Part shown: one piece after another, positions 2,434-48,016 of the stretch
How positions within the stretch are numbered: the first letter of the stretch is position 1
Layout: each line of letters opens with the position of its first letter
Source of the DNA: a virus
IMG/VR virus record: IMGVR_UViG_3300022752_000023
Span: 1-64,000 of that record
Length of the DNA stretch: 64,000 bases
Direction: 5' to 3' (one strand)
The notes under the pieces: model-generated
The model's input: only the letters and a program-made list of their open reading frames with translations
Databases searched by the model: none
What the model was told of the DNA's origin: nothing
Made by a program: the position numbers and the translations under genes

Positions 2434-3169
2434 ATCGAACCTCCCGTTTCTTTTTTACTGGCGTCGGTTTATCGTTTTCGGCTTCGGCGGCTTTTGCGCG
2501 TATCCCGGTTGTATGTTGTGCGACGATTTTGTCAAGTTTGGCTTTCTGACGACATTCTTTGATTGTGCGGCTAACGTCGCCCAGAAGATTTCGCGCGGCA
2601 TGCGAAAATAACCGTAACACATAAAAACGCTCTGCCGCCCGTAACGCCAACAGATCCCCGTCAAGTTGGGTAAGTATTTTTTTAGCTTTTGGAATTGCTG
2701 TCACGCCGTTTGCATTAACAAACGCCAACAAATCGCGCGCAGTGCAAATGATGTCGGCGAGAACGATGATCTGCGAGCCTACCGGGCTGCCGCTGACTCG
2801 CCCGCGAAACTCCATATCGCGCTTTGTCTCGACCATACGAAAATCGCGGCTGATGTCAGCAACCATCGCTGCAACTTGTACCGTCGATATTTCGGCTATG
2901 TTTTCAAACGCACACGCACTGACATTTAAAACATCGTGCAACAGCGCGCCTTGAATAATCGCCGTAATACTTTCTTTTGTGTCGTCTGGTAAATAATCAG
3001 CACGTACGTCTTGATATAACTTGTGCGCGATCGTTTCTGCTTGTCGTGCGACTTGTTTGCTGTGCTCTACCAGACTAATCCCGGCGGTCGTACGCAGGTC
3101 TCGGTAGTGTTGCTCAGCAAATAACAATATGTGCCGTAACGGCACCACTAGGCTGTCCGATTTTTTCAT
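2408..3169 (-). CDS. HD-domain phosphohydrolase, SpoT/MESH1-like
   Basis: This is a probable metal-dependent phosphohydrolase. The order of elements fits the RelA/SpoT-MESH1 HD fold: SLVEHSKQVARQAETIA (first His), GALLHDV (HD pair), MVADISRDFRMVETKR and IIVLADIICTARDL (distal Asp). In the (p)ppGpp hydrolases these residues bind Mn2+ and the pyrophosphate. No synthetase, TGS or ACT domain is present, so it would be a stand-alone small alarmone hydrolase, or an HD nucleotidase. The C-terminal ~40 residues are strongly basic (PVKKKREVRYARKR). I chose ATG 3169, with GGAG 5 nt upstream, over GTG 3190, which overlaps the upstream stop. Substrate assignment is an inference. Confidence 0.7.
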   Translation of the reverse strand: MKKSDSLVVPLRHILLFAEQHYRDLRTTAGISLVEHSKQVARQAETIAHKLYQDVRADYLPDDTKESITAIIQGALLHDVLNVSACAFENIAEISTVQVAAMVADISRDFRMVETKRDMEFRGRVSGSPVGSQIIVLADIICTARDLLAFVNANGVTAIPKAKKILTQLDGDLLALRAAERFYVLRLFSHAARNLLGDVSRTIKECRQKAKLDKIVAQHTTGIRAKAAEAENDKPTPVKKKREVRYARKRSVE

Positions 3170-3186
3170 GGCATCTCCATATGCCG

Positions 3187-4230
3187 TCACACAAGTTTGA
3201 GCAAAGTTTGCCAGCCCAGCTCAAACGATTTGCGGCGTGTTGCTAGGTTGTAGTTCACCCGGCGGTTTAAGTTATCAATGTGCGCCGGCTCTGCGATAAG
3301 AGTCTGTAGCGCGGTAATCAGCCGTTCATAATCTGGCGCCGCGTGAGGTACGCCATTTTCGTCGTAGTCTACACGTGTTTTAACAAGCACGCCATTTGCA
3401 TCCTGATACACGAAGTCAAGCTGCGGGGACAGCGCAAACGACAGCACAGGCGTACCGCAATTAATCGACATCAGGCTGCAAAAGCCGTAATTGTCGCACT
3501 CGGCTGGAAATATCGTGAGATCGTGCGCCGTGTACATGGCCGGGCGTTTTGCGAGCGGCGTATTACGAATAAGTTTCACCCGGCCGGAAGTTTTCCGCCC
3601 CAAAGTCTGAAAGAACTTAGCCACGGACGGCGCAAACCGGCAAGACGTAATTGCAACCGTAAGCTGCGCGTCGGGCATGCGTTCGAGCAGGTACCCGAGC
3701 AAACCCAAAAACTGGCTATTTGCGCAACGAGCGTTTCTGTCAAACCACGGTAAAAATATCTTTACCTGCCGGCTGTTGACTGTTTTTGTTTTCTTCGTGG
3801 CGGGTAGTCCAACGTCAAACGGAATGTACGTAACGTTTTTGAATTTGTAGACTTTTGTGAACAATTCACGCGCTTCCGAATTCATCGCAATAACGTGATC
3901 GGCGCGTTGCATGACTTTGCGGAACGGCCGCATCAGTTCCTGCCACATGGGCACAATGATCGTCCGCGCATTGATACGCCGCGTGAAATTTAGCGTGTCT
4001 AGCTTTGGCGGCTGCGTGTAGATAATTGTGTGGCACGTTTTTGCCCAATGCGTAAACGGGCATTGCTTTTTATGCACGACAGCTCGGTCGTGGTGTGTGC
4101 ACAGCTTAGCCGGCGGCGTATCGGCGTAAATGGTGTACTCAACGCCCTGTGTACGCAAAAAGTCAGCAAGCCGCACAGCAAAGTACGCTTCATCGCAGTG
4201 AGCGTAATGTGTATAGATACCAATACGCAT
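3187..4230 (-). CDS. GT-B fold glycosyltransferase (GT4-like)
   Basis: The 347 aa have the layout of a retaining GT-B glycosyltransferase. The N-terminal acceptor half starts MRIGIYTHYAHCDEAYFAVRL. A linker reads ADHVIAMNSEARELF. The C-terminal nucleotide-sugar half contains IFPAECDNYGFCSLMSINCG, matching the acidic-residue/Gly-rich donor-binding region (EX7E-like) of GT4 enzymes. The gene lies directly downstream of the portal gene. The acceptor is unknown: capsid or tail protein, phage DNA, or host surface polysaccharide are all possible. The fold call is fairly secure; the substrate is not known. Confidence 0.78.
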   Translation of the reverse strand: MRIGIYTHYAHCDEAYFAVRLADFLRTQGVEYTIYADTPPAKLCTHHDRAVVHKKQCPFTHWAKTCHTIIYTQPPKLDTLNFTRRINARTIIVPMWQELMRPFRKVMQRADHVIAMNSEARELFTKVYKFKNVTYIPFDVGLPATKKTKTVNSRQVKIFLPWFDRNARCANSQFLGLLGYLLERMPDAQLTVAITSCRFAPSVAKFFQTLGRKTSGRVKLIRNTPLAKRPAMYTAHDLTIFPAECDNYGFCSLMSINCGTPVLSFALSPQLDFVYQDANGVLVKTRVDYDENGVPHAAPDYERLITALQTLIAEPAHIDNLNRRVNYNLATRRKSFELGWQTLLKLV

Positions 4231-4233
4231 GTG

Positions 4234-6156
4234 TTATTGCGCTGGGGCGCCTTGGCCAAACTGCTGCGCCATGAGCATCGCGCCGCCCTGCGAACGAGCC
4301 TGTTGTCGAATGTCGTCGATAATACTTGTGACGAGCGCGTGCATTGTCGAATCGGATCTCTTCAGTTTGATAAGCTCAGAATCCTTTACAGATTCAGGCA
4401 TAGATAACAACTGATTCGCCATAAGCTGTGCTTGTTGCTGCAACTCTTCTGGTGTGCGCGGCACGTTCGGCGAGTTCTGCCGTTGCATAAGAAACTGATC
4501 GACCGGGCTCGGTGCTTGGCCGGGCATACCGCCGGCAGGTGCTTGAGCCGGCGCGCCGCCTCCTTGCGGCATACCCGTAGCGCCGGCACCCGTGTTGCCG
4601 ACACCTGACATCATGTCTGGCGCCTGACTCATGTCCTTCATTTGCTGCGCCTGCTGCATCTCCGCCTGCATGCGCTCTTGCTCTTCCGCGTAAATCTTTT
4701 CCTCTTCGAGCATTTGTTTGATCTCGTCGCGGTAATCCAAACCAACACTCGAAAGGCCAGTGCTCTTGCTGATCTGCTGCCCCTGCATGAGCTGCAGCTT
4801 GGCCATCTGCCGGTTAAGGTCGTCAGCGTGGGTGACGCGCATCAGCTTCGCGCTGACAGGTTCCCACGACATAACGCGCGAAATCGAAGACACCAACTCG
4901 TTCAAGAACAAATTCATATTGTGCGGCAAATGGCTCCAATTTGCTTCGAACAGACGTAGCGCAGCCGGCGCGGCTTGCAGCGTCAGCGTGCCGTTGAACA
5001 ACTCAACGGGCATGCCGATGCACTTCAGCAGCGTTTCTAAACCCTGATCGAGGAGGTCGCGGGGCGCGAGCTGCGACGCGTCTCCGCCAAGCGCCTGATA
5101 CTGCACAGGAAACGGAAGAATGTTCCAGCGCGCCGGGTCGCTGCGGCGCGCCCGAATCATCGCGTTAACGCGAGCAGTAAAGCTAGAAAGATTGATTGTA
5201 TGTACCGGGTCGGACGACTGCGCGTCGCCGCCGCGCGGCATTGGCGTGATCACACGAAACGGGATAACGTAATCAAGCGCGACTGCCTCGTTGTAGCGCT
5301 TGAGAATTTGGTAGTACCACGCTTCGCGGAAGTTTGCGAGCACGCGGGAGATACCCCAACCGCGGTTGCGCATGCCGGCAAGCGGATCTTCTTTAAGGTG
5401 AAAAATCACGCCCTTATCAAACATCAAATTCTGGCCATTTTTGATTGCCTGAATAACTTCCCAGCTTGCGCGCTCAAGATGGTGCAAGTGACCCTGTTTG
5501 ATCAGCGTGCGATAGTCTTCTGGAATTTTCCACACATATGAACATTCGCCGGTGTACGGGTCCCACAAGATATCAATTTCGTGTGGGCTCCAACGTTTGA
5601 CGGTAATGTGGCTTGTGTCACCACTGCGGCGGTCTACGTGTTTCCACGGTCCAACATGCTTACATTTCGGGCACGTTGCGTGAAACTGAAAATTCTGCCA
5701 CGAAAAAGCGCACTGATCAGAGTTCATTACCCGGTCGAGCGGCATCTCAAGTCCGCATTTCGGGCAAAACAAATACCTACGAAACGGCACAAGCAGACTA
5801 GTGAAAGAATTACCGTAGGTCATGTAATCCATGCCTACAGAGTGCAACACGTTTTTAATGCTTAACGTCTCAGACAAAAACGTCTGATACTTCTCTTTCT
5901 CTTCACGGCCTGTTTTGTTTTCGCCGACGTCTCTAATTTCGACGTCTGTAATAAAGTAAGACACGACGCGGTCAACGGCCTGCCTGTAGGGACCGTTCGC
6001 GTTCATGATGTACTCAGTCCAGCGCAGGGCCGTCTGGATGCTCTCAGGCATCGACAGACTGGCTACGTCGCAGAACGGGTCCGGGAAGCGCTCGTCGGCC
6101 TGTACGCCGCGACCGAGCGAGTTATACCCCATAGAAGCGGATGGTAAGAGCGTCAC
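4234..6156 (-). CDS. Phage portal protein with an internal zinc ribbon
   Basis: The 640-aa portal protein would form the dodecameric DNA-translocation channel at one capsid vertex. Portal-like features are LRWTEYIMNANGPYRQAVDRV near the N-terminus, GVIFHLKEDPLAGMRNRGWG, IGMPVELFNGTLTLQAAPAA and an ISKSTGLSSVGLDYRDEIKQ segment. The tail is Gln/Met/Ala/Pro-rich (about residues 480-600), typical of the crown and barrel end. Two CPKC motifs (CPKCGLEMPLD and CPKCKHVG, about residues 130-165) form a zinc ribbon within the wing region, which is unusual. The start is GTG 6156 with GAGG 5 nt upstream; an internal ATG at 6132 is the alternative. No terminase or capsid gene is in the window. Confidence 0.85.
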   Translation of the reverse strand: MTLLPSASMGYNSLGRGVQADERFPDPFCDVASLSMPESIQTALRWTEYIMNANGPYRQAVDRVVSYFITDVEIRDVGENKTGREEKEKYQTFLSETLSIKNVLHSVGMDYMTYGNSFTSLLVPFRRYLFCPKCGLEMPLDRVMNSDQCAFSWQNFQFHATCPKCKHVGPWKHVDRRSGDTSHITVKRWSPHEIDILWDPYTGECSYVWKIPEDYRTLIKQGHLHHLERASWEVIQAIKNGQNLMFDKGVIFHLKEDPLAGMRNRGWGISRVLANFREAWYYQILKRYNEAVALDYVIPFRVITPMPRGGDAQSSDPVHTINLSSFTARVNAMIRARRSDPARWNILPFPVQYQALGGDASQLAPRDLLDQGLETLLKCIGMPVELFNGTLTLQAAPAALRLFEANWSHLPHNMNLFLNELVSSISRVMSWEPVSAKLMRVTHADDLNRQMAKLQLMQGQQISKSTGLSSVGLDYRDEIKQMLEEEKIYAEEQERMQAEMQQAQQMKDMSQAPDMMSGVGNTGAGATGMPQGGGAPAQAPAGGMPGQAPSPVDQFLMQRQNSPNVPRTPEELQQQAQLMANQLLSMPESVKDSELIKLKRSDSTMHALVTSIIDDIRQQARSQGGAMLMAQQFGQGAPAQ

Positions 6157-6168
6157 GGGCGCCTCGCG

Positions 6169-6318
6169 CTATTTGGACGTGTTTTGAACAGTGTCCGCAG
6201 CTCGTTTGCGGAAATCACTATCAAGCGCCTGAACCTGCGCTTTCTTTTCGGTCGGCTGCGGGGCGTCGTCGTTTTCCGGGGGCGTGACGCCAGCTTTTAT
6301 AACTCCGCACTTTTCCAT
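6169..6318 (-). CDS. Small hypothetical protein, 49 aa, between portal and upstream gene
   Basis: The frame runs from ATG 6318 to TAG 6169 and begins MEKCGVIKAGVTPPENDDAP. GAGGTG lies a few nt upstream of the ATG. It fills the gap between the portal gene and the next gene exactly. The sequence is polar and probably disordered after residue 15, with a helical KKAQVQALDSDFRKRAADT stretch. The function is unknown. Confidence 0.7.
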   Translation of the reverse strand: MEKCGVIKAGVTPPENDDAPQPTEKKAQVQALDSDFRKRAADTVQNTSK

Positions 6319-6320
6319 GA

Positions 6321-7232
6321 TTACACCTCGTCGTAATTTGCCCGCAGGGCGCGCTCAACGAGTAAAACACAGTACTCGCGGTTATCATAAACATACTGAA
6401 ATCCGGTCGTATGGACAAGGTATAACCGCCTGTCGTCGCTGATTTGTACGGCCCACGGACGCTGATAAGGATCGTTTGACGGCGGAAACCAGCGCGCTGC
6501 ATTTTGCTCAAAACGCAAGTCGTAAATTAATACGATAAAGCCGGCCTCCTCGATACTGTCAGGAGAAACTTGCGCGACCGACACAATTACGTCGTGAAAA
6601 AACGCCGGCACCGTCCCGATTCCCTCTTTTTCAAAGTACAGCAGTTTTTGCGGCGGACCAGCTTTATGCGCCGTGGCAGTTGCAGTCGGTACTGGGTTGT
6701 TTGATTGTTTCTTCAATCCAAACGCCGCCATTGGGCTGTAGTTTCGATCAATCTTTTCAATGGGCGGCATAGCAGCAGGCTGATCTAGTTCAGCGACCAT
6801 ATTTGCTACCAGTTGTTCTTCGTTATCGTCGGCGGGCGGCACGAGCGGAGGAGTTACTTTCTTTACGCGCGTCGGTACGCGCTGCACGCCGGCTTTCTCC
6901 ATCTTTGACAATTCTTCAAATACCATTGCCGCACGCTCCCTAATCGAGTTGATATCATTACCGGGAATGGCCGCCTGCGCCGTGGCTAACGCCTGCTCAA
7001 CAGCGGGCGCGGTCATTTGATCAAGAGTCAATCCCCCGACGTTAGAGCCGTTGGGATCAACAACGTTGATTTTAATTTTTGTACGGTCGTGTGGGTTGAA
7101 GTTAATTGGGATGCCGCCCGGCGTGGCCGGCGCGACGATTACACCCTTAAGCCCTCTGCTGCCGCGCATGACGTCGAGCATTGTGCGGCCGCTTTCTAGC
7201 CGTTCGTTCGCCGGGTCACGATAGTCAGCCAT
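6321..7232 (-). CDS. Hypothetical protein, 303 aa, upstream of portal
   Basis: No family is recognised. The N-terminal ~60 residues are Gly/Pro-rich (GVIVAPATPGGIPINFNPHD). A central region (about 70-190) is low-complexity and Ala/Pro/Lys-rich. The C-terminal 100 residues form a plausible globular alpha/beta domain (LLYFEKEGIGTVPAFFHDV through YVYDNREYCVLLVERAL). It is the first gene after the 7249 terminator and is co-directional with the portal gene, so a virion role is possible but unproven. Confidence 0.75.
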   Translation of the reverse strand: MADYRDPANERLESGRTMLDVMRGSRGLKGVIVAPATPGGIPINFNPHDRTKIKINVVDPNGSNVGGLTLDQMTAPAVEQALATAQAAIPGNDINSIRERAAMVFEELSKMEKAGVQRVPTRVKKVTPPLVPPADDNEEQLVANMVAELDQPAAMPPIEKIDRNYSPMAAFGLKKQSNNPVPTATATAHKAGPPQKLLYFEKEGIGTVPAFFHDVIVSVAQVSPDSIEEAGFIVLIYDLRFEQNAARWFPPSNDPYQRPWAVQISDDRRLYLVHTTGFQYVYDNREYCVLLVERALRANYDEV

Positions 7233-7248
7233 AAAAGCTCCAATAGCT

Positions 7249-7292
7249 AAAAAAAGGGGGCAACGAGTGGCCGAAGCCTAAACGTTGCCCCC
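7249..7292 (-). terminator. Strong intrinsic terminator overlapping a stop codon
   Basis: On the minus strand a perfect 10-bp stem (GGGGGCAACG paired with CGTTGCCCCC, positions 7256-7292) is followed by seven T residues (7249-7255). The stem includes the last codons of the upstream 95-aa gene and its stop lies in the 17-nt loop. It separates the 7278-17445 block from the portal operon. Confidence 0.92.
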
Positions 7293-7565
7293 GAAAGATT
7301 CTGAACTCAACTCAGGACACACTGAATACAGCTGTTTTTTCGGAATGTGAAAATACAGCCGACCAAGCGGGACCCCACCTCCGCAAACTAACCTGACGTG
7401 CTCTTCTGTTGGCAACACCTCTGCGAGGATCTTACCGGAGAGGAGCTGCGCTACCACTAAACCCGTACCACCGTCATCTGGAAAAAACGGTAGCGTACTC
7501 GGCGCGGCGTCGATGTTTAACAACCACGTTAACGCTGATTCTTCGGGTTTGATGAAATAACGCAT
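7278..7565 (-). CDS. Hypothetical protein, 95 aa
   Basis: No homology is recognised. The protein is beta-rich (LTWLLNIDAAPSTLPFF, GLVVAQLLSGKILAEVLP, RLVCGGGVPLGRLYFHIP), possibly a small barrel. The last codons and stop form part of the terminator hairpin, so it is the last gene of its transcript. No clear Shine-Dalgarno is seen at ATG 7565; expression may depend on coupling to the gene ending at 7582. Confidence 0.65.
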   Translation of the reverse strand: MRYFIKPEESALTWLLNIDAAPSTLPFFPDDGGTGLVVAQLLSGKILAEVLPTEEHVRLVCGGGVPLGRLYFHIPKKQLYSVCPELSSESFGGNV

Positions 7566-7581
7566 GTCAGGAAGTTACGGA

Positions 7582-8835
7582 CTAGCGCGCAATGCGCATA
7601 CGAACACTTTCTGCACACTCAACCGCTACCGCAGCCCCGGCAGTTGCCGAAACCCGATAATCTTCCGAAGGTTGGTAACTCGACCGCTTCGGAACAAACT
7701 CGACCGGCGCTAGCAATTCACCGCGATACGGAAATGGCGTATTCTGCCATTCCGACGCCCGGTTAACCTGAATAGCGCTGAGGCGACTCAACACTAAAGG
7801 TTTAGCCGGAAACATCGCGGCTGTAAATAGCTCTTCGTCAGTCGCTTCCCGTTGCGCCCGCTTGGGCGCGTGAAACCGCAAATACGTTGCGGCCGCAGAC
7901 GGCATCTGCTCGATCGCCATCTTGATATCAATCTTCATCTCCAGCGGCTGGTCGGGAGATATAAGCGCATCACACATTTCGTCCTCGGCGGGCTTCAACT
8001 CGCCAAGTTCGGCATACATTCCGCGCAGTAAATCATCGACAATCCACTGTGGCATCCCTTCAACGCTGTCCAGCCCGTGCCGCGCCAGAATCTTGCCGGC
8101 CGGGTTCGGTAACGACACCGTGATGTCGCGGACAGCACCAAACGGATTACGAGCCATATCGCCCAGCACAGGCGAAAAATCTTCGACCGCGGCGTCGTGC
8201 TTGATCGCCTTGGTAACGTCCTTAGCCGACTCTTCGGTAAGCGCGGCAACGTTGACATAGGTCTTGTTGCCAAACTCACGAAGCATGCTGTCGCGCAGCT
8301 TGCGCCGGTAAGTCTCTACCAATTCAGACGGAGCATTCTGGACGGCCAGCGCGGTCAACTTATCCTCGTCGATCCGCATGTGGTCACGAACAGGAATATA
8401 CACCGTCGGCCAACGACAGGGCTCGAACGTTACCGTCTCGCCCCGCTTATCGGCATACCCGTAGTTGCAGATGTTATGAAGCATGTCACAGCCACGTTTT
8501 GCGTTAAGCCTGTGTTTCTGCTTGTTCATATTCAACTGCGCGCCGAAACCCTTGGGCGAAATTGGGGCGCGAAAGTCCCACTTGCCAAGCGTTTCTAGCC
8601 ATACGTCGCCAGACCGATCTGCCAGCGCCATTGCTGGAGACAGAGTCAGCCCGCCATGCCTAGTTACTTCAAGCACCAACGCCGAAGGGCGCACCTTATC
8701 GCCGAATCGCCGAAGCGGCGAGTCGAACTTTTTGCCCTCGCCGGCTAGCCAGCTTACCGCCACGAGTTCTTCGCAGCGGGCCGCTACCCGATCGAAAGCC
8801 GCGATAATCGTTGCCTGTGTCTTCGCGATATCCAC
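7582..8835 (-). CDS. Hypothetical protein, 417 aa
   Basis: The function is unknown. I chose GTG 8835 (MDIAKTQATIIAAFDRVAAR) because AAGGAG lies 6 nt upstream; an ATG at 8883 lacks such a site. The protein is soluble and mixed alpha/beta, with no obvious nucleotide-binding motif. A central SLPNPAGKILARHGLDSVEG segment is followed by an acidic helical stretch, and the C-terminus is basic. Its 5' end overlaps the preceding small gene by 140 nt. It lies in the block of unrecognised proteins upstream of the 7249 terminator. Confidence 0.75.
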   Translation of the reverse strand: MDIAKTQATIIAAFDRVAARCEELVAVSWLAGEGKKFDSPLRRFGDKVRPSALVLEVTRHGGLTLSPAMALADRSGDVWLETLGKWDFRAPISPKGFGAQLNMNKQKHRLNAKRGCDMLHNICNYGYADKRGETVTFEPCRWPTVYIPVRDHMRIDEDKLTALAVQNAPSELVETYRRKLRDSMLREFGNKTYVNVAALTEESAKDVTKAIKHDAAVEDFSPVLGDMARNPFGAVRDITVSLPNPAGKILARHGLDSVEGMPQWIVDDLLRGMYAELGELKPAEDEMCDALISPDQPLEMKIDIKMAIEQMPSAAATYLRFHAPKRAQREATDEELFTAAMFPAKPLVLSRLSAIQVNRASEWQNTPFPYRGELLAPVEFVPKRSSYQPSEDYRVSATAGAAVAVECAESVRMRIAR

Positions 8836-38639: not shown

Positions 38640-38918
38640 CTAGTCTTCTTTGGTTGTTGCGTTGTCCGTAAAACTAACAAACTCGCCGCCGTCGTCGTTA
38701 AAGATTAAACCGGGTTCGCCGCCGTCTAATCCCTGTGCCGCGCGCGTCGCATACTTTTTCAGTAAGTTGTAAATCTTGGCGCCGCGACGATCGCCAAATT
38801 TGATGCAGAGCAACGCTTCTACCGTCAAATACTCTTCGTATCCCTCTTCGACGTCGTCCTCTTCGTACGGGTTCTCGTCGTCAATAAACCCGCCAAAATC
38901 AAAATTTTCGTTTTGCAT
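38640..38918 (-). CDS. Acidic hypothetical protein, 92 aa
   Basis: The N-terminal 30 residues are acidic (DDENPYEEDDVEEGYEEY). A helical segment (LTVEALLCIKFGDRRGAKIY, NLLKKYATRAAQG) follows, then a Gly/Asp-rich tail. No family is recognised. It is the last protein gene before the tRNA region. Confidence 0.7.
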   Translation of the reverse strand: MQNENFDFGGFIDDENPYEEDDVEEGYEEYLTVEALLCIKFGDRRGAKIYNLLKKYATRAAQGLDGGEPGLIFNDDGGEFVSFTDNATTKED

Positions 38919-38927
38919 AGTATCGCC

Positions 38928-40074
38928 TCAATAAATAACAGTCAATGAAACAACGCAATCGGTTAGCGGAAACAGATAAACACCACGAGCTGAAAACTGT
39001 CGTGGGCGCTCCAATCGCATTACGACGCGGCCGGAGTGCAGCAACGTAGCCACAACATAAGACCCGGTTGACGAGACTGCCGCGTCGATTGAGATAACAT
39101 AATCGGTGTCCGGGACTGGCACCTGAATAGACGCGCCGTGCGCGCCTGTTGCGCCTGTGATTCCGAGCGTAGCAGCTTCTTTTGCGCCGTCAATAACGCG
39201 CTCTAACGACGCGACATCGTCTCGAAGCACGACCGCATAGTGCGCTGGTTTTGTAAACTCGCCTAGATAGCCCGAACGCTCAATCTGTTTGCGCTGCGCT
39301 TCGCTGATCACAGCGGCAATCTCTAGATGCCGCGCAGCGATACTGACATACGCCAGTAACGCCGGGCAGATTGACGCGTAATCTTCTGCAGTGTTGGTGC
39401 CAGTGACCGAAGGAGCAGACCGCGGAGAAACAGGAAAAAACTCGCCCGTTTCCAACAGCAAAAAATGCGTGTTCGTACCGTTGTCGAAAGACATGCCGCG
39501 ATAAGCCGGGCCAACCTCGCCGCTTGGTAATTTGTCACGAAAACTGACGAGGCTGGCCGATAATGCCGAAGCCATTGTGTCCGTAAACTGTGCCGGATTA
39601 AACACGCGCGCAAGCATACGCTCGTTGTAAATCTCTGGAGCACTTGGGTTCACAGTTTGAGTATTTTTGTAAGACTCGGCAACCTCGGCGATTACGGCGT
39701 CAAAGATATCTTGCGCCGGCACGTCTGGATCCGCGAGGCCGTTTTCCACCAAATCGGCAAATAGCGTCAGCGCGGCAACCAAAACGCCAGCCGTATCTTT
39801 TGCTTCCGCGCCGTATTGTTTGGCGATCGCCGGGCCGCGGCCGAGAACCGCCTGCGTGATCGAAAAAGGTACGGCGCCCCAGTTAATGTTTCCGGTCGTT
39901 TGCGCTAGTTGGCTGAGCGCTTTGAAAAACGCCGGATTTTTTGTCGGCAGCTGCGCTTGGCGAAAAAGTTCAAGCGTGCACGCCAGTAGTTTTAGCGCGC
40001 TGTGATCATCAGCGGCTTTGAATTTACCCAGAAACTCCCGAATAAGACTCGACGGTTTTTGTAATTTGTCCACT
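38928..40074 (-). CDS. Hypothetical protein, ~381 aa
   Basis: GTG 40074 is favoured as start (GGAG 6 nt upstream); ATG 40085 lacks a site. The N-terminal half is helical (ALKLLACTLELFRQAQLPTK, FFKALSQLAQTTG). The C-terminal part is beta-rich (TDYVISIDAAVSSTGSYVVA, TLLHSGRVVMRLERPRQFS) and includes a very short collagen-like GITGATGAHGAS. A virion or surface-interacting role is possible. It overlaps the upstream HTH-DHS gene by 51 nt. Confidence 0.7.
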
Positions 40075-41241
40075 GAATACTCCATCGCAAACGTTTAAAA
40101 GTGTCATCACGTTCGATTTAAAGGTGCCTGAAATGTTGTGTGCTATGCCGTGGTGGCTATTCACATATGGTGCAAAAGAAGGTTGAACGTGACTATCAAT
40201 AAGAACAGCGTGAAAATTGGGCGCGCGTTCGCTGTCAGAAAGCGCGCAACGTGCTTGAAGAAACAAATGCAGGCCGCGCATAACGTCGCCTATAAGCAAC
40301 ACTACACCGCCTTGTGTTGCACATAACTGACGAACTTGTTCGGCAAATACCAACAGATCTACATAAGTGGCCGCGCCAAAAGCAGCGCCAATCTCTGCGC
40401 CCGGACCGTCCGGGTAAATGTGCCCGGCCATTTCGCCCAACTCTACGTGCACTGTCGCCGGCACACCCAGCGTGTACGCCGAGTGCAGCAAACTGCGGTC
40501 TTTCTCGGCACGCGGCGAGTAAGCCCAGCGCCCGACAGCCTCGCCATAGCCGAGCCCCTGATTCGCGGCCAAGCGGGCCACGTAGTTCAGGTCGTGCGTC
40601 ATGCCACGTTCAGACACGAGAATGTCAGCTACTAATCCTGCGCCGGTTGTCGCGACAGCTGTGACGTATTTTTTTCGCAGCAATTCTATGGCGGTAATAC
40701 CGGCGCCGGCATGGATCGCCAGCGCCGATATAAACAACAAAACTGGTTGGTCGGCAACGCGTGCGTTGTGAATTAAACTTGCCACGTCAACGTGCGCGGG
40801 CGTAATCAAACTCGGCTTGTCAGCCAACACTGGCGGCATTGCGTCGCACGGCGGAGTCGCCGCCCGTAGAGTGTCGAATACAGGAAAAGAACTGTTTAGC
40901 CGAAGCGGAAGCTGAAGCGCGCCGGGATGTTCCACGGTTGTGCCGCGGAGCATTGGTCCGTTGCCCCACAGCAACCAGTCTGGACTGACGTGCGTATGGC
41001 TAAGAATTTGCGCCAGCAACTGCGCTGAAATGGCATACTGGCGTTTGAATACTTTACCAAGATGTGTCGAGTCTAGTTCGATAGCCCGCGCAAACGCCGG
41101 CACGTTGTTATCAAAAAGCGTAGCGCACACATACTCAAGGCGCTGCATCCACGGCTGGTCCAAGTGAGTAAGCTTGCGCCTGTTCTCGTCGCGCTTCTGC
41201 CGCTGCAATTCGCTGAGGTGACTGCTCTTTCTTCTCGGCAT
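40024..41241 (-). CDS. Fusion of an XRE-type helix-turn-helix and a deoxyhypusine-synthase-like domain
   Basis: The start ATG 41241 has AAAGG 6 nt upstream. Residues ~40-100 match phage-repressor XRE HTH domains: VPAFARAIELDSTHLGKVFK, then ISAQLLAQILSHTHVSPDWL and LLWGNGPML. From about residue 165 the sequence follows the NAD-binding core of deoxyhypusine synthase-like proteins: AIHAGAGITAIELLRKKYVT, AVATTGAGLVADILV, GMTHDLNYVARLA, then GVPATVHVELGEMAGHIYP, GAEIGAAFGAATYVDLLVFA and GGVVLLIGDVMRGLHLFLQA. The catalytic Lys region of true DHS (WGKI) is not seen. It may be a metabolite-sensing repressor rather than a hypusine enzyme. Both parts are seen in sequence; the function is inferred. Confidence 0.66.
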   Translation of the reverse strand: MPRRKSSHLSELQRQKRDENRRKLTHLDQPWMQRLEYVCATLFDNNVPAFARAIELDSTHLGKVFKRQYAISAQLLAQILSHTHVSPDWLLWGNGPMLRGTTVEHPGALQLPLRLNSSFPVFDTLRAATPPCDAMPPVLADKPSLITPAHVDVASLIHNARVADQPVLLFISALAIHAGAGITAIELLRKKYVTAVATTGAGLVADILVSERGMTHDLNYVARLAANQGLGYGEAVGRWAYSPRAEKDRSLLHSAYTLGVPATVHVELGEMAGHIYPDGPGAEIGAAFGAATYVDLLVFAEQVRQLCATQGGVVLLIGDVMRGLHLFLQARCALSDSERAPNFHAVLIDSHVQPSFAPYVNSHHGIAHNISGTFKSNVMTLLNVCDGVFSGQITKTVESYSGVSG

Positions 41242-42232
41242 GATTTGCCTTTCGTTTTTGCTGTATGACTAGTCGTCGTCCGGTTTTCCGCAGAATACCG
41301 GTGCCGGCGAGCAGCCTTATGCCGTGAACAGCACGCAAAACAGCGGCCACCAGTTCATCATATCCGTCCAGCAATTGCATCGGGTAGCGATTGAACTCGC
41401 CAAACAGATAGAAAAACTCGGTCTCGGGTTGATCATGACAATCCGAAACCTTGACTGACTTGATGTACGTCACACGGCTACCGCGAACCCGAACGCACGG
41501 TAGTTTTGTTTTTGGGGCGTGCAGAAAAAACTGTCGCGCTTCTATCAGCCAGCCGTTGTCCTGCGGAACTATCGCCAGTCGCCACATCGACCCGAGTAGT
41601 TTGCGGTTCAGCTGCTTTGTGCACTTGTCGTAGGCAGTTCGTTCTTTTTGCAGCTCACCCCACAGCAATCGTTCGTACGTTTTTACGACATCGAGGCCGC
41701 AGCCGATACGTGGATCCCAGTCAGGTGCGGCCACAAATCGTGCAGCCACCCGGCACGTAGCAATAAGCTTTGTCGCCTTGTTGTGCCGGCCGATCGCTCG
41801 CAACTTTTTACGTACGTCTCGATACTGCGCGGAGCTTATTCGAGCGTAACAAAAAGGACACACATGCGACCGGTTGCACGGACGAAACACCGCGCTCTTT
41901 TTCCACCGAAAAAACATGTAGGTAGGGCGGCAGAACAGGCAACGCTGAAAAGACAGTCGAAAGTTTTTGAAGTCAAAATCAGCGGCGTCAGGGTCTGTTT
42001 CGCGGCCGACGGGAAACCACAGCGCACGAATTGCCAGTTCTTTGAGTTTAATTGTCCACCGCTGCCGAACCGTGTTTGTGCGCCCAACAACCGCGTCGTG
42101 TGTTTTGGCGCCGTTTAAACCCAGCACAAACTGCTGAGCAAACACGTGCGCCATTCGGACGCTGACACGGTGAACGCGCCAATTTTTTATCTGATAGCGG
42201 CGGACGAACCCCGCAAAGTCGATGAGCGCCAT
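41135..42232 (-). CDS. Replication-protein-like (Rep) zinc-motif protein, 365 aa
   Basis: The centre contains SAVFRPCNRSHVCPFCYARI followed by a basic RDVRKKLRAIGRHNKATKLI. This resembles the C..H..CPxC zinc module that precedes the core of plasmid and phage Rep proteins. HUH and Tyr motifs cannot be placed confidently. The C-terminus is basic and Ala/Gln-rich (KRKANHAEKKEQSPQRIAAA). It overlaps the next gene by 107 nt. A DNA-binding or origin-related function is a hypothesis from the zinc module alone. Confidence 0.6.
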   Translation of the reverse strand: MALIDFAGFVRRYQIKNWRVHRVSVRMAHVFAQQFVLGLNGAKTHDAVVGRTNTVRQRWTIKLKELAIRALWFPVGRETDPDAADFDFKNFRLSFQRCLFCRPTYMFFRWKKSAVFRPCNRSHVCPFCYARISSAQYRDVRKKLRAIGRHNKATKLIATCRVAARFVAAPDWDPRIGCGLDVVKTYERLLWGELQKERTAYDKCTKQLNRKLLGSMWRLAIVPQDNGWLIEARQFFLHAPKTKLPCVRVRGSRVTYIKSVKVSDCHDQPETEFFYLFGEFNRYPMQLLDGYDELVAAVLRAVHGIRLLAGTGILRKTGRRLVIQQKRKANHAEKKEQSPQRIAAAEARREQAQAYSLGPAVDAAP

Positions 42233-45582: not shown

Positions 45583-45672
45583 TCACCTATCGTAACCTCT
45601 GAAATAAAAATAGATAAACGCAATCGCGATCGCGGCGCCGCAGATCTCCGACACCCAGTTACACACAATCAT
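45583..45672 (-). CDS. 29-aa membrane miniprotein
   Basis: ATG 45672 to TGA 45583 encodes MIVCNWVSEICGAAIAIAFI, then YFYFRGYDR. A GGAGG sits 4 nt upstream of the ATG. Nearly the whole chain is one hydrophobic helix with a positive C-terminus, which predicts a single-pass inner-membrane peptide. It overlaps the MazG stop by 4 nt. The role is unknown; small phage membrane peptides often affect lysis timing or superinfection. Confidence 0.62.
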   Translation of the reverse strand: MIVCNWVSEICGAAIAIAFIYFYFRGYDR

Positions 45673-45977
45673 GATGCCTCCTTCACAAAGATACCCTCTG
45701 GCGTCAGCGTGCCTTTGCGGTCTTTGATCTGCTCATACGCCATTGCAAGGCAGTATTCGGGCGTGATGCCGTGTAGCTTGCAATACAGAATGAGCGTCAC
45801 AAGTACGTCGCCAACGCCGTCTACGATCGCTGTGGCGTCGCCCTTGAGTGTGGCGTCAGCCAGCTCTCCCAGCTCCGACATCGTCTTCATCAGCTGCGCG
45901 GTCGGATTGCTGTTGGGAATGATCTTCCTGTCCATCGCCCACTGAATCACCTTCTCTTCCAGTTCCTGAAACGTCAT
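45669..45977 (-). CDS. MazG-like NTP pyrophosphohydrolase
   Basis: A 102-aa all-helical protein with the MazG/dUTPase-superfamily metal motif: KTMSELGELADATLKGD (ExxE) and VDGVGDVLVTLILYC (ExxD-equivalent DxxxD). It hydrolyses nucleoside triphosphates to monophosphates. Phage relatives are proposed to cleanse non-canonical dNTPs or to lower (p)ppGpp. Together with the SpoT/MESH1-like HD gene at 2408 it could modulate alarmone levels. The substrate is not determinable here. Confidence 0.82.
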   Translation of the reverse strand: MTFQELEEKVIQWAMDRKIIPNSNPTAQLMKTMSELGELADATLKGDATAIVDGVGDVLVTLILYCKLHGITPEYCLAMAYEQIKDRKGTLTPEGIFVKEAS

Positions 45978-47663: not shown

Positions 47664-47698
47664 GTGGCGCGGATTATGTTGTCATAATCAGTGGCGCG
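47664..47698. promoter_or_regulatory. Operator-like inverted repeat flanked by direct repeats
   Basis: The perfect dyad GATTATG-TTGT-CATAATC (47672-47689) is flanked on both sides by the direct repeat GTGGCGCG (47664-47671 and 47691-47698). It sits 12-46 nt upstream of the first start codon of the block, where a repressor or activator would act. No convincing -35/-10 pair was identified. Confidence 0.55.
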
Positions 47699-47950
47699 CC
47701 GTTTGTAGGGGGGTAAATTGGGTCAAAAATTGTGCGTAACCTATTGACGTCATTGAACTTATGACGACGCATTTAAGCGTTTTTTGTCCGAATTGTGTGG
47801 ACCTAGAGTAAGTCCTTCGGACTTACAAGGACACAAGGACATCATTTTTTTTGATCGTGTAGGCATCATTTTGGATGTCTACTGCATGATCGGGGGGTTG
47901 TTCAATTCACGTTGGGCAAACTGGGTAATTTGCCCTGACGTTTGGATAGC
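47699..47950. promoter_or_regulatory. Gene-free regulatory stretch with hairpin and tandem 8-mers
   Basis: This is the largest non-coding stretch in the window. It contains a perfect 8-bp stem with a 3-nt loop, GTAAGTCC-TTC-GGACTTAC (47808-47826). Directly adjoining is a tandem ACAAGGAC x2 (47825-47840). There is also a TGACGTCA palindrome near 47744-47751. It probably holds the promoter region for the block below, but I cannot place a promoter with confidence. A plus-strand ORF here is not credible. Confidence 0.5.
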
Positions 47951-47995
47951 AAAAAAAAGAGATAGCGTAGGGGCGGGTTTTTCCCGCCCCTACGC
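47951..47995 (-). terminator. Strong intrinsic terminator after the ParB-like gene
   Basis: A perfect 13-bp stem (GCGTAGGGGCGGG with CCCGCCCCTACGC, 47965-47995) and a 5-nt loop. On the minus strand it is followed by TATCTC and eight T residues (47951-47958). It ends the accessory transcript that comes from 57752. Confidence 0.93.
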
Positions 47996-48016
47996 TTAAA
48001 AAATCCACGCTGTTTG

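Follow-up and report, generated by a model that had tools for sequence, protein, structure and literature searches.

What kind of protein is encoded by a phage gene whose product looks like a repressor at one end and like an enzyme at the other? The question is posed by a minus-strand gene in the window analysed here, a stretch of 64,000 nucleotides (positions 1 to 64,000) of the 144-kb virus record IMGVR_UViG_3300022752_000023 from IMG/VR. An initial annotation had read this gene as a CI/XRE-style helix-turn-helix (HTH) fused to a deoxyhypusine synthase (DHS)-like core, and all of the motifs that it quoted are present in the minus-strand translation of 40024-41241. The features at the locus are:

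40024-41241, minus strand: HTH-GSU2086-like fusion gene (open reading frame of 405 residues, ATG start)
40948-41154, minus strand: probable CI/XRE-type HTH region (residues about 30-98, motif VSPDWLLWGNGPM)
40057-40800, minus strand: predicted DHS-fold, GSU2086-like domain (residues about 148-395)
41135-42232, minus strand: upstream gene of 365 residues with the motif RPCxxxHxCPFCxAR, overlapping the fusion gene by 107 nt
38928-40085, minus strand: downstream gene of 385 residues, overlapping the fusion gene by 62 nt
38640-38918, minus strand: gene of 92 residues, next in the same conserved block

A chance reading frame can be rejected, because full-length relatives in seven IMG/VR contigs align with the protein from end to end (74-87% identity) and dN/dS is low (0.05-0.09 in the C-terminal core; 0.07-0.22 in the HTH, for the comparisons that allowed an estimate of dS). 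All seven contigs share the gene order of the window, five of them are about 194-205 kb long, and the carriers belong to an uncultured phage family with genomes of roughly 200 kb. A fold search of BFVD returned no viral relative at E ≤ 0.001, and the literature searched contains no description of a viral protein that combines an HTH with a DHS fold, in keeping with the original remark that no phage regulator of this shape had been described.

The N-terminal half is likely to be a CI/XRE-type HTH, as judged from a set of weak matches that point consistently to repressors. Helices are predicted at residues 30-42, 47-56, 60-69, 73-81 and 88-92, and the pattern ends, as in CI/XRE-type phage repressors, in a SPxWLLTGxGxM-like motif. 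Profile searches matched phrog_9710 (E 2.8e-4), phrog_2328 ("transcriptional repressor", E 0.016), the PDB entry 4ich ("transcriptional regulator", E 0.0019) and, as the best Pfam hit, HTH_31 (E 0.0085), with the Pfam scores below the curated cut-offs. A tblastn search with the HTH region matched 16 phage records, and each of the 15 that are annotated is a repressor or HTH regulator. An hhalign comparison with a profile of five repressors gave a probability of 98% over 71 columns, a value that is optimistic because the five had been picked by similarity. The AlphaFold model of this region is helical, with four to five helices in the expected order, at a pLDDT of 51, and Foldseek found no PDB match for it. 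The proposed HTH in the first ~100 residues is supported by its annotated relatives, but its E-values are modest and the structural model does not confirm it.

What follows the HTH sets the protein apart from CI/XRE-type repressors, since a DHS-fold domain takes the place of their S24 peptidase/dimerisation domain. Nor do the fusion phages show a tyrosine integrase: PF00589 has no match in eight records that include six of them, and a reading of the protein as a lysogeny-type switch is not supported.

For the C-terminal half, AlphaFold places most ten-residue blocks from residue 141 to 390 at pLDDT 71-93, and the best PDB matches of this domain in Foldseek are the C-terminal domain of ArgZ and DHS (7cmc, 6juy; E about 4e-7), with TM-scores that, normalised by the whole query, reach only 0.38-0.41. 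Because the modelled core is mostly confident and is placed by Foldseek among these proteins, the initial fold call was right, and the predicted structure confirms a DHS fold. The closest structural counterpart, the ArgZ/AgrE C-terminal domain (ornithine cyclodeaminase, LOR/SDH), has been solved in AgrE with NAD+ bound (6lrg); the fusion protein differs from it in sharing about 13% identity and in having an HTH in place of the arginine dihydrolase domain. DHS itself shares the overall fold, its first Rossmann region (residues 163-209) aligning weakly.

Membership of the DHS family, by contrast, is rejected on profile scores and motif loss, so that only the fold part of the earlier assignment stands. 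The protein scores 13.6 bits against Pfam DS (PF01916; cut-off 27), has no eIF5A link and shows no DHS catalytic lysine motif, with GDVMRGLHLFLQA at about the corresponding place as judged from the sequence; the suggestion that the active-site lysine is absent is thus upheld. The NCBIfam model GSU2086_dom, on the other hand, matches the window protein in two stretches at E 9.3e-27 and its relatives at 3e-29 at best, is found in all six fusion phages searched, and is joined by an hhalign match to plain GSU2086 proteins at E 1e-25; the bit score against the family model (NF052581) is 94.4, under the curated cut-off of 250. By sequence, the C-terminal half is a strongly diverged offshoot of GSU2086 rather than a DHS: it shares with that family the fold and the family motifs over residues about 150-350, and differs from it by its low score, the added HTH and the residues that it has lost. 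The ordinary readings, namely a chance reading frame, a true DHS and a plain repressor, all fail for this protein, which is a new combination of domains built to a known design.

The plain members of the family point to sugar metabolism. In Geobacter, the GSU2086 gene encodes a hypothetical protein between hldE and gmhA in a sugar biosynthesis operon (PMC5585712). An HldE/PfkB/SIS homologue lies within about 5 kb of 70 out of 79 bacterial GSU2086 loci (a raw count), and such genes also adjoin GSU2086 on two plasmids. Two bacterial GSU2086 proteins, L084 (5001-6503) and L134, end in a nucleotidyltransferase domain of HldE type, recognised by eye, and these fusions directly support a heptose-type role for the family. 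A profile of the fusion protein matches 92 of 148 sampled genomes of one phylum, and all of the matches listed start after the HTH; unusually long bacterial GSU2086 frames are accounted for by read-through or by nucleotidyltransferase fusions. No HTH was found on any bacterial GSU2086 protein among those examined, and no bacterial counterpart of the fusion was seen.

Plain, HTH-less GSU2086 genes also occur in two other phage groups, represented by L020 (311 bits, a full member above the cut-off) and by L021-L023 (238 bits, just under 250). Both plain-GSU2086 phages tested have an HldE-like gene, whereas HldE (TIGR02198) has no match in the available sequence of six fusion phages (G000-G005); GmhA (TIGR00441) has none in eight phages, the same six and two with plain copies, and for both searches the records may be incomplete. 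The L020 locus is syntenic with the fusion locus but lacks the HTH, its order being the counterpart of the upstream gene (4001-5005, orthologous to that of the window), plain GSU2086, and then the HldE-like gene and an orthologue of the metallophosphoesterase encoded in the window. Within 2986-8375 of the same record (IMGVR_UViG_3300010883_000017), a sugar dehydratase/epimerase, plain GSU2086 and the bifunctional HldE-like gene lie close together, and this segment is possibly a phage-borne heptose-type nucleotide-sugar pathway. A phylogeny gave the fusion a branch of 6.5 changes per column, too long for its placement in the tree to be trusted.

Which functions could the domain have kept? Among 70 columns that are each conserved in at least 97% of bacterial GSU2086 proteins, the window fusion retains 27, compared with 62 in L020 and 49 in L021. 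The part that aligns with DHS/ArgZ, namely the N-terminal Rossmann half with the first Rossmann motif TTGAGLVADI, has been kept, and this loop and HVELGEMAGHIYPDGPGAEIGAAFG, both putative pocket elements, are near-invariant across the fusion clade. Missing from the domain are the GQFGLWxET loop and the YYFRPWKTxLxRT motif; in addition, Q329 stands in place of the FLKAL lysine and Ala205 in place of the histidine of IHD.

Residue loss, strong constraint and an attached HTH are together best read as the marks of a ligand-binding regulator. We put the probability at about 0.5 that the protein is a phage one-component regulator in which a CI/XRE-type HTH is coupled to a ligand-sensing domain of DHS fold derived from GSU2086. 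The probable HTH is fused to a descendant of the GSU2086 family, plain members of which belong to heptose-type sugar-nucleotide operons. The enzyme-like domain has shed most of its signature residues, including the lysine of FLKAL and the loops of two motifs, but stays under strong purifying selection. It has thus most likely given up the parental reaction and binds a small molecule instead, either a dinucleotide of NAD type or a heptose phosphate/ADP-heptose, and the bound ligand would alter DNA binding by the HTH, perhaps through the oligomeric state. Ligand binding, DNA binding, gating and targets of the protein are inferred. Of the candidate ligands, the heptose-type sugar nucleotide is suggested by the parent family and NAD by the fold. 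The proposal that the domain senses NAD(H) or a polyamine rather than catalysing is accordingly narrowed: since the family is GSU2086 and not DHS, and sits in heptose operons, nothing supports a polyamine, and a heptose-type ligand and/or NAD(H) is likelier. More tentatively, the phage may have lost a heptose pathway and turned its enzyme into an HTH sensor that reads an envelope-sugar or NAD metabolite of the host to time expression.

The same observations bear on two other explanations. DHS-fold proteins form tetramers, and many phage repressors depend on a domain for oligomerisation, so the C-terminal half may merely stand in for the dimerisation domain of CI as a scaffold that senses nothing. 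The loss of catalytic-looking signature residues would suit this role, but the near-invariance of the putative pocket loops suggests that they hold a ligand and do not serve surface packing alone, and we regard this role as unlikely. It is rather improbable that the C-terminal half is still an active, NAD-using enzyme with a different specificity, which the HTH directs to DNA or to a complex bound to it; strong purifying selection and the retained Rossmann half would fit such an enzyme, and the motif losses could reflect a changed reaction rather than none, but the conserved Lys, His and Arg and two whole motif loops of the plain homologues are gone.

If the protein is a ligand-gated regulator, where might it bind? 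The initial annotation had proposed operator dyads immediately upstream of 41241 or at 47672. The first site can be dismissed, as the DNA there lies inside the overlapping gene 41135-42232. At the second, two elements are found:

47672-47689, minus strand: perfect 18-bp dyad GATTATG-ACAA-CATAATC, a candidate operator or mRNA hairpin
47704-47729, minus strand: TTTTTGACCCAATTTACCCCCCTACA, a conserved, promoter-like block (not of sigma-70 consensus) immediately upstream of the dyad

Both elements are clade-specific and stand at the head of a minus-strand gene block, with an ATG (47652) following the dyad at a distance of about 20 nt. A very strong intrinsic terminator (47964-47996, 14-pair stem), conserved in relatives, lies further upstream. 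A single exact match to the dyad exists in about 144 kb, and the dyad is invariant in the fusion-phage clade. The exact 18-mer is present in 12 IMG/VR contigs, seven of which belong to this clade (among them L144, which has an identical promoter block and comes from a sample that also yielded a fusion contig). In the seven, at most 133 open codons run through the site; in the other five, the flanks are unrelated and the site lies inside open frames of 175-2965 codons. In mRNA, the dyad sequence can form a hairpin as well (z −2.8). A real, invariant dyad thus exists at 47672, but its link to the HTH is partly contradicted and was not accepted: the likely recognition helix (residues 58-69) reads STHLGKVFKRQY in most relatives and PSHLSQVLAGRL in L006/G004, and the dyad is unchanged (L145) despite the strongly different helix in G004. 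Because the helix diverges in one phage and the dyad does not, binding of the HTH at this site is doubtful.

As for the surroundings of the gene, both overlaps recur in relatives and the order of the three overlapping genes is the same in all. The upstream gene, conserved in all relatives and common to the window phage and the distant phage L020, has no match in Pfam, PHROGs, NCBIfam or PDB, and the downstream gene is 75-85% identical in relatives. A MazG-like pyrophosphatase is encoded in the same region (45669-45977), and a link of the locus to defence systems was rejected for want of a PADLOC match. The conserved order might suggest a host-takeover or counter-defence unit in which the fusion protein and both partners form a complex within which the HTH contacts protein or DNA, but this is very improbable, since neither partner matches PADLOC, Pfam, PHROG or PDB and compact phage genomes often have overlapping genes.

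Regulators that sense metabolites through a domain derived from an enzyme are well known in bacteria, and ROK, RpiR/SIS, BirA and NadR share with the fusion protein, by analogy only, the design of an HTH attached to a domain that is, or once was, an enzyme and that binds the metabolite concerned. We know of none that uses a DHS/GSU2086 domain, and the pairing of this fold with a repressor-type HTH is, as far as we could find, undescribed; if the ligand-gated reading is true, no other transcription factor that we know of has a sensor of DHS fold. Should its ligand prove to be a heptose or NAD metabolite, the protein would illustrate how host metabolism is read by a large phage, and its study would also inform the reaction of the widespread GSU2086 family.
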